DNA of 64,000 nt from positions 1,116,001-1,180,000 of the forward strand of contig NZ_CP076019.1 in NCBI RefSeq assembly GCF_018623055.1, given 5' to 3'. Shown in pieces: positions 5,037 to 57,907 of the stretch. The DNA is from Halorubrum sp. 2020YC2. Its GTDB lineage: Archaea; Halobacteriota; Halobacteria; Halobacteriales; Haloferacaceae. Every line of letters starts with the position of its first letter. The stretch's first letter is position 1. The notes below the pieces were generated by a model, which made no database searches, was not told the origin of the DNA, and saw only the letters and a program-made list of their open reading frames with translations. Position numbers and translations under genes: made by a program.

Positions 5037-5092
5037 CGTCGGATTAAACCCGACGTAATTCTGCGCGATCCGCCGAACTCCGGAATAATTAC
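5037..5092 (+). promoter_or_regulatory. promoter region with inverted repeat upstream of the metallohydrolase gene
   Basis: Positions 4881-5117 hold no gene and are much richer in A+T than their surroundings. AATAATTAC at 5084-5092 lies about 28 nt before the ATG at 5118, the spacing of a leaderless haloarchaeal promoter. Further upstream, CGTCGG (5037-5042) and CCGACG (5050-5055) form an inverted repeat around ATTAAAC. The same arms occur around the gyrB TATA box at 57702-57722. A bound regulator is inferred only. Confidence 0.4.
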
Positions 5093-5117: not shown

Positions 5118-5951
5118 ATGGTCGACTCCGACTGGGGCGACTGGCTGCCGCGCGCGGTCGCGGCCGCCGACCCCGACACGGTGGCGCTGTGGTACTTGGG
5201 CTGTAACGGCTTCGCGGTCAAGGGGAGCGAGGGGACCATCCTCTGGATCGACCCGTACGTCGGGACGGGCGACCCGCCGCGGACGATCCGCATGATCCCG
5301 ATCCCGTTCGATCCCGAGGACGTCGAGGCCGCCGACGCCGTGTTGGCCACCCACGAGCACACGGACCACGTCCACGGGCCCTCGCAGGCGCCGATCCTCG
5401 CGAACACCGACGCCGACCTCGTCGCGCCGGACGACTCGCTCGCGGTCGCGCGCGAAGAGGAGGCGTGGACCGACGAGTACGCGGTGAGCGAGGCCGCCTT
5501 CACCGAGGTTCGGGAGGGCGACGAGCTGAAGATCGGCGAGTTCACCGTTCACGTCGTCGAAACGCACGACGCGGATGCGACCCACCCCGTCGGCTACGTG
5601 ATCGAACACGAGGCGGGCACGGTGTTCCACGCCGGCGACAGCAAGCCCTCGCCGTCCTTTACCGGGCTCGCGGAGCGGTTCGACATCGACCTCGGCATCC
5701 TCGCGTTCGGCTCCGAGGGCACGGTTCCCGACAAGGAGACGGGCGAACCGGTCCCGACGAAGTGGTACAGCGACGAAAACGAGATCGCGGCGGCCGCGAA
5801 CGACCTCGGACTCGACCGGCTGGTCCCCACCCACTGGGACATGTGGAAGGGGCTAACGGCCGATCCGACCGCGCTCCACGACCACGTCCGGAGCTACGAG
5901 TCGCCCGAGCGGTTAGAGATAGTCGAGATCGGCGATCGGATCGACCTGTAA
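5118..5951 (+). CDS. UlaG-like MBL-fold metal-dependent hydrolase
   Basis: A metallo-beta-lactamase-fold enzyme of 277 residues. The zinc motif THEHTDH is at about residues 78-84, HAGDSKPSPSF is a later ligand strand, and VPTHWDMWKG resembles the end of UlaG (L-ascorbate 6-phosphate lactonase) proteins. The opening WYLGCNGFAVKG and the motif spacing also fit that branch. UlaG-like proteins hydrolyse lactones or phosphoesters, but no sugar-use genes adjoin it and the substrate is unknown. It appears to be a single-gene leaderless unit. Confidence 0.8.
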   Translation: MVDSDWGDWLPRAVAAADPDTVALWYLGCNGFAVKGSEGTILWIDPYVGTGDPPRTIRMIPIPFDPEDVEAADAVLATHEHTDHVHGPSQAPILANTDADLVAPDDSLAVAREEEAWTDEYAVSEAAFTEVREGDELKIGEFTVHVVETHDADATHPVGYVIEHEAGTVFHAGDSKPSPSFTGLAERFDIDLGILAFGSEGTVPDKETGEPVPTKWYSDENEIAAAANDLGLDRLVPTHWDMWKGLTADPTALHDHVRSYESPERLEIVEIGDRIDL

Positions 5952-28134: not shown

Positions 28135-28622
28135 GGCGGACGCACGCTCGCTGTCGCCCGAAAATCGGAGAGTTTCGGGATGACGAGAGAGCTTCGCTCT
28201 CTCGAACCACGCTCCTCAGTCGCCCACTTCGTTTGCTCCCTCCGGTGCTTGCGTCGTCATCAGAACGCGAAGCGTTCTGATTGGCTCACGAGAGCTCCGC
28301 TCTCGTGAACGCCTGCGTCCGCCTCCCGGCTGCCCCTTCGAGTCCCGCACCTCCGGAAGACGGTCCTGCTCGCTCACTACGTTCGCTGCGCGGGCTGCGA
28401 CTTCCGTGCTCCCGCTCGCTTCGTCGCCGGCGCGCAGCGCCGGCTGCTAGAGGGACCGAAGGTCCCTCCCCGCTCGCGGGAACGCACAGCAACCGCGCCT
28501 CACGCCTCCCCAACCTCGCGGTTCGCGCTCTTCGAGCGCTCACCGCGTCCCTCGCACGCGCTCCTCGCGGCCGCCTTCGGCGGCCACTCGGAGGCGCGCG
28601 TCACCGCCGCGTCTATTTATAA
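28099..28622 (-). mobile_element. hairpin-rich dispersed repeat, copy A (candidate structured RNA or non-autonomous element)
   Basis: The whole convergent gap 27838-28643 lacks a supportable gene. Read on the minus strand: TTATAAAT box (28615-28622), 20 nt, then a 97-nt core (28594 down to 28498), an extra 128 nt or so absent from copy B, module 2 (28330-28346), several hairpins, and module 3 (28099-28126). Modules 1-3 recur in the same order in copy B at 62401-62736. Many perfect stems of 6-9 bp close 3-nt loops (for example GAGGGACC/GGTCCCTC, CAGAACGC/GCGTTCTG, CACGAGAGC/GCTCTCGTG). Open frames here are arginine-rich, with no protein family, and are rejected. Confidence 0.6.
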
Positions 28623-53257: not shown

Positions 53258-57684
<4,427 letters not shown>

Positions 57685-57701
57685 TTACTCTAGCTAGTTG
57701 C

Positions 57702-57722
57702 CGTCGGGTTATAAACCCGACG
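57702..57722 (-). promoter_or_regulatory. gyrB TATA box embedded in a perfect inverted repeat
   Basis: Arms CGTCGGGTT (57702-57710) and AACCCGACG (57714-57722) flank ATA. The TATA core TTATAA (minus TTTATAA) is at the centre, 24-44 nt before the gyrB ATG. A factor binding here would compete with TBP. A related, looser version lies at 5037-5055. Confidence 0.6.
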
Positions 57723-57907
57723 CACGCCCGCGCGCGTGAGCGACCGATTCGACGCGATCCGGCGCACTCGGTCCGGCTCGGGAGCGAATTCGGCTCGCGG
57801 AGTAAGCTGATCTGACGGTGAGTAGAGCGCGGGTGGTAGGGGTGTAGAGCGGCGGTGTGCCGACGCGTCCCACAGCTACAAACCGCCGCCCCGCGTACCG
57901 CCGGCCG

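Follow-up and report, generated by a model that had tools for sequence, protein, structure and literature searches.

The promoter of the DNA gyrase gene gyrB carries, almost throughout the Halobacteria, a conserved tract of alternating purines and pyrimidines just upstream of its TATA box. The tract holds its place relative to that box, runs in control promoters are much shorter, and the negative supercoiling calculated to flip it into Z-DNA falls in a narrow range. From these observations we infer Z-DNA formation at the tract and regulation by it; that the tract is a structural supercoiling sensor giving homeostatic control of gyrase is, in our judgement, an evenly balanced proposition. We advance somewhat more tentatively its sharper form, in which a protein-free Z-DNA switch with a narrow flipping threshold, set at the BRE and TATA box of the gyrase operon, would be the sensor of almost an entire archaeal class.

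The gyrase locus and its promoter

The window analysed here is a stretch of 64,000 nucleotides from Halorubrum sp. 2020YC2 (NZ_CP076019.1, positions 1,116,001 to 1,180,000, forward strand). Its gyrB lies on the minus strand at 55762–57678 (Pfam DNA_gyraseB, DNA_gyraseB_C, HATPase_c and Toprim), with gyrA on the same strand at 53258–55777 (Pfam DNA_topoisoIV and DNA_gyraseA_C; taken from the ORF table). Since gyrA overlaps the end of gyrB, the two genes are probably co-transcribed.

The TATA box, TTTATAA, occupies 57709–57715 on the minus strand, its first T 37 bp before the gyrB ATG (57678); a TATA-like element is present in 83 of the 84 Halobacteria gyrB promoters. Upstream of it the purine-rich link TCGGG (57716–57720, minus strand) falls at the BRE position and may serve as that element. 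This link connects the TATA box to the alternating, Z-DNA-prone tract, CACGCGCGCGGGCGTGCG in the gyrB sense (57721–57738, minus strand), which consists of two alternating blocks joined at a G. The predicted start lies some 30 bp past the TATA box; the leader would then be very short, so the tract should not be transcribed. On the other side of the TATA box, a CTA triplet (57695–57697, minus strand) recurs by eye in many haloarchaeal gyrB promoters, roughly 11–16 bp downstream of TATA, and is possibly a proximal promoter element.

In four of 20 genomes the gyrB matches are split in two segments inside one long open frame of 1106–1245 amino acids (L015/L021 in G007, L016/L022 in G011, L018/L023 in G018 and L019/L020 in G001), as expected for an intein between residues ~435 and 505.

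An alternating tract across the Halobacteria

We surveyed 84 gyrB promoters from 76 genera, mostly genus representatives among 242 genomes of the class; the genome sets behind these surveys overlap in organisms and are not independent. One promoter, L017, was left unscored because the script found no TATA-like element in it, which leaves 83 promoters and 75 genera. In 82 of the 83 promoters purines and pyrimidines alternate over 8 bp or more somewhere in the 30 bp preceding TATA, and in 78 they do so over 10 bp or more; the median longest run is 13. Counting one promoter per genus, 74 of the 75 scored genera, that is 74 of the 76 examined, have a run of at least 8; the two without a tract are L017 and L178. 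The position is also regular: the run ends 3–6 bp before TATA in 70 of the 74 tract-bearing genera and 7–8 bp before it in the other four. The window itself has a longest perfect run of 10, followed past a one-base break by a block of 8 bp.

Base composition does not account for this pattern. Over 300 rounds, shuffling brings the mean longest run down from 12.9 to 5.3 when base content is kept (mononucleotide shuffles) and to 8.5, with a maximum of 9.2, when dinucleotide content is kept, so GC content alone does not explain the alternation. Moreover, seven of the eight promoters with the lowest-GC flanks (0.47–0.55) bear the tract, L178 being the exception, which argues that high genomic GC is not its cause.

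Runs in other promoters are much shorter. TATA-bearing control promoters were picked mechanically: 22 came from the window together with 400 kb of its genome, and 22 from 20 other genomes. Their median run is 5; runs of at least 8 occur in 3/22 and 1/22, and runs of at least 10 in 0/22 and 1/22, respectively. The promoters of topA also have a median run of 5, with at least 8 bp in one of 19 (19 of 20 loci scored); here a short protein motif was used to locate the gene starts, and a TATA-like element served as reference in 7/19 and a fixed offset in 12/19. A BRE-like string, CGAAA, precedes the TATA-like element in six of those seven. Outside the Halobacteria, gyrB upstream regions (20 genomes of 88 found) have a median run of 7, against 13 in the 84 haloarchaeal ones by the same measure; a single outgroup sequence attains a run of 12, and it is AT-rich.

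One genome (G196, contig 10) has a second, divergent gyrB (L304), 68% identical over its N-terminal part, whose upstream region has no Z-prone tract.

Calculated B-Z threshold

Our scheme for the B-Z transition takes its dinucleotide energies and junction cost from PMC3024258 and uses general background values for the remaining parameters (superhelical constant, junction twist and helical repeats). For (CG)16 the scheme returns -0.032, compared with -0.031 measured and -0.032 calculated in PMC3024258.

With these energies, which are not for 3–4 M KCl, the calculated threshold (sigma_c) of the window tract is -0.0413. The values are closely grouped: -0.0425 (SD 0.0021) over 75 genera and -0.0423 (SD 0.0016) over the 74 tract-bearing ones, L178 left out, with -0.0462 as the lowest of the 74. 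The 44 control promoters average -0.0571 (SD 0.0045), and the best of them, at -0.0481, falls below all 74 tract-bearing genera. The tractless L178 has the lowest gyrB value, and 16 of the 44 controls lie above it.

The gyrB tract also has a low calculated B-Z transition energy relative to its surroundings. In 464 kb of its own genome (~15%) the window tract ranks first in Z-propensity, and none of 3600 tiles of 44 bp, taken from 20 own-genome stretches (the first 8 kb of each), reaches its value. In 79 of 80 loci of 3.9–6.6 kb no tile is more Z-prone than that of the gyrB promoter, which comes second in the remaining one. Two observations count against a Z-DNA sensor: 29 other sites in the same 464 kb have a threshold of -0.0445 or above, and the optimal Z segments include alternation-breaking steps in 54 of 75 genera.

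Alternation, base identity and rival readings

The 74 tract-bearing genera hold 43 distinct run sequences. Within families, however, tract identity is 83–84%. Selection on alternation and not on base identity would be expected to make the differences transitions; these account for 0.44–0.59 of the tract differences, with only 0.35–0.38 in the home family. For comparison, 4-fold sites give 0.29, two upstream flanks 0.33 and the interval from TATA to ATG 0.42, all from pairs that are not independent. The high within-family identity and the modest transition excess indicate that base identity matters too. Permuting alignment columns within four families did not consistently point to covariation as what maintains alternation. 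The observed sigma_c was reached in 0/200 permutations for f1, 18/200 for f4, 11/200 for f10 and 200/200 for f7, Z-propensity thus falling on permutation in f1 and mostly in f4 and f10 but rising in f7; the observed run length, exceptional in none, was reached in 119, 175, 38 and 200 of 200 in the same order. By eye, a break in alternation (CTC or GAG) is commonly retained in f7, so the threshold may be kept off its maximum, or a protein may recognise the site.

Two pattern scans looked for the tract elsewhere. In the window's own genome CGCGYGN{6,14}TTTAWA occurs at ten places, among which gyrB is the only verified promoter; an automatic check of the other nine for an ORF downstream leaves some of them, L109 and L115 included, as possible promoters. 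The narrower CGCGTRCGN5TTTA has 28 places in 19 of 30 genomes, 15 of them at gyrB, six in one coding sequence and seven single. No regulon was seen with this narrow pattern in the 30 genomes; 15 of the 30 gyrB tracts, the window's among them, escape it, so that looser sites lie beyond its reach. The six coding places (L286–L291, in six genomes) have the tract-plus-TTTA pattern inside one conserved coding sequence, which we take to resemble a TruB/Cbf5-type pseudouridine synthase. This is a coding coincidence that could pass for a regulon in a motif scan.

These data also bear on two readings that do without Z-DNA. The tract could be a protein-binding site: gyrB would then be under a dedicated regulator, activating or repressing, that recognises CG-rich DNA beside the BRE, and the sequence preference of this protein would yield alternation and self-complementarity as by-products. 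The within-family identity, the conserved breaks in alternation, the fixed spacing to TATA and the inconsistent covariation all speak for such a site; yet the many distinct run sequences over 74 genera, every one alternating, do not suit it, and the narrow scan hit mainly gyrB (15 of 28 places), albeit with a pattern blind to half of the gyrB tracts. On balance we consider it rather unlikely, though it deserves serious attention. A GC-rich part of the promoter in B-form could instead set TFB affinity, duplex stability or twist and so make initiation sensitive to supercoiling; the tract does adjoin the BRE position, and it stays rich in CG also between flanks that are not. Such a part would not call for a mean run far above both base- and dinucleotide-preserving shuffles, which makes this reading improbable.

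A possible supercoiling sensor and known systems

As a supercoiling sensor, the tract would act as follows. Negative supercoiling past the threshold would flip it to Z-DNA; the Z-DNA or a B-Z junction would then sit where TFB contacts the BRE and disturb the binding of TFB and TBP. Fewer preinitiation complexes would form, and transcription of gyrB-gyrA would fall. Upon relaxation the tract would return to B-form and transcription would rise, so that control would be homeostatic and need no dedicated protein sensor.

This model fits the published induction of gyrase genes by novobiocin in Halobacterium salinarum R1 (PMC3184054). A plasmid-borne haloarchaeal gyrB is likewise reported to have been stimulated on gyrase inhibition in older work, as summarised in PMC8643681 and PMC9348778. 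The opposite sign, in which Z-DNA would help transcription as proposed for bop, would amplify supercoiling and thus fits the novobiocin data less well. The novobiocin response of bop itself is given inconsistently: PMC8643681 and PMC9348778 cite it as induced, whereas PMC3184054 cites inhibition in strain NRC-1 and finds a five-fold rise for R1 in its own data. The disagreement leaves the gyrase results unaffected.

The bop promoter of Halobacterium offers the closer likeness in composition. Yang et al. reportedly described in it, in 1996, an alternating purine-pyrimidine 'RY' element, for which a supercoil-dependent non-B structure was proposed; it is said to be a run of ~11 bp centred ~23 bp before the start site, with supercoiling helping transcription. 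What the two share is an alternating tract in a haloarchaeal promoter and a proposed supercoil-dependent non-B structure. In length the gyrB run matches or exceeds the reported one (median 13; 10 plus the 8-bp block in the window), but its position differs: it lies 3–8 bp upstream of TATA in all 74 tract-bearing genera, as judged with a predicted start. The gyrB tract differs further in serving a gyrase gene, in its presence in 74 of 76 genera and in the inhibitory effect proposed for its Z-form.

In outcome, the likeness is to bacterial gyrase promoters stimulated by relaxation, for example that of E. coli gyrA (PMC6170449). There, as proposed here for gyrB, expression goes up on relaxation with a homeostatic result. 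The architecture is different: the haloarchaeal promoter is of the TATA/BRE type and carries the conserved alternating tract, and we know of no Z-prone element in the mechanism of the bacterial promoters. We rate the gyrB tract, like bop in composition and like the bacterial promoters in its proposed outcome, as a member of neither family.

A literature search covering few subscription papers found no earlier account of a haloarchaeal gyrB promoter with such a Z-prone element. PMC8643681 names as unknown whether supercoiling under gyrase control shapes adaptation in gyrase-bearing archaea, and how gyrase and other topoisomerases are coordinated. A nearly class-wide and precisely placed Z-prone tract makes the question of gyrase feedback testable with few reporter constructs. 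Z-promoting patterns are reported to be generally suppressed in prokaryotes (PMC4060949); if the mechanism proposed here is true, Z-DNA would have a natural, conserved role in them.

Inverted repeats

The first-pass annotation of this DNA had placed the gyrB TATA box inside a perfect 9-bp inverted repeat, and the repeat is there: the arms CGTCGGGTT (57702–57710) and AACCCGACG (57714–57722) are separated by a spacer of 3 bp, so that the 21 bp at 57702–57722 read CGTCGGGTT-ATA-AACCCGACG, with TTTATAA at the centre on the minus strand. As such it is unremarkable. Perfect repeats whose arms reach 9 or more, at spacers of 0–10, occur 24 times in the window and 24, 14, 20, 15, 22 and 28 times in six dinucleotide shuffles of it; the number of repeats is thus at chance level, and what is notable is the position on the TATA box.

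Conservation was compared over 39 promoters, the window and 38 loci (37 from Halorubrum and one from a close relative, L039). TTTATAA is kept in 36 of them, the remaining three being left unscored, while all seven arm pairs outside the TATA box form in the window only (1/36). The mean number of pairs is 4.83 of 7, compared with 4.71 after random re-pairing (maximum 4.97 in 2000 trials; n=36), and no dyad with compensating changes appears among these relatives. Variation in the arms has its limits: with positions numbered outward, pairs 3–9 form in 17, 31, 35, 31, 16, 36 and 8 of the 36, which includes the inner CGG/CCG pairs (31, 35 and 31) and one outer G-C pair in all 36. In families outside Halorubrum the dyad is absent by eye from upstream regions placed side by side. 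The TATA box is thus conserved and the arms vary for the most part freely, the outcome named beforehand as one that would refute a role of the palindrome.

It had been suggested that a dimeric factor bound to these arms would block TBP, or that a cruciform at the palindrome would let the promoter sense supercoiling. Perfect arms flanking TATA and the CGG/CCG core kept in the genus would favour either one, yet the perfect arms are confined to the window and do not covary, and repeats of this quality arise at chance frequency. A scan of the genome for further sites, a check proposed along with these ideas, does not bear out an operator: the 21-mer is unique at 0–2 mismatches and has four other places at 3. 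A cruciform would need a sigma of about -0.056 to -0.080 at an assumed cost of 14–20 kcal/mol, more supercoiling than the Z-DNA-prone tract next to it is estimated to need. An operator or cruciform role in this species is therefore very improbable, and we judge the repeat incidental, probably a one-species coincidence and not the functional element. The palindrome was set aside in both roles on conservation, the lack of arm covariation and its chance-level frequency. From the same suggestion, the idea of a gyrase feedback through a supercoiling-sensitive promoter gains indirect support from the adjacent tract, while the route through a palindrome or cruciform does not.

A looser version of the repeat had been noted before the gene at 5118, which encodes an MBL-fold protein. 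It is present (CGTCGGATTAAACCCGACG, 5037–5055), its end 63 positions ahead of the ATG. Relatives share, as judged by eye, a promoter-like block (ACTCCGGAATAATTACC) in the interval from the repeat to the ATG, and the repeat therefore does not frame the promoter of that gene. Nor is the repeat conserved: among the 17 relatives whose upstream region could be used it recurs in one (L335, the eighteenth, was left out because its register was wrong). Elsewhere in the window, the 125 bp at 28184–28308 contain three perfect inverted repeats, each with a spacer of 3 and arms of 9 or longer.
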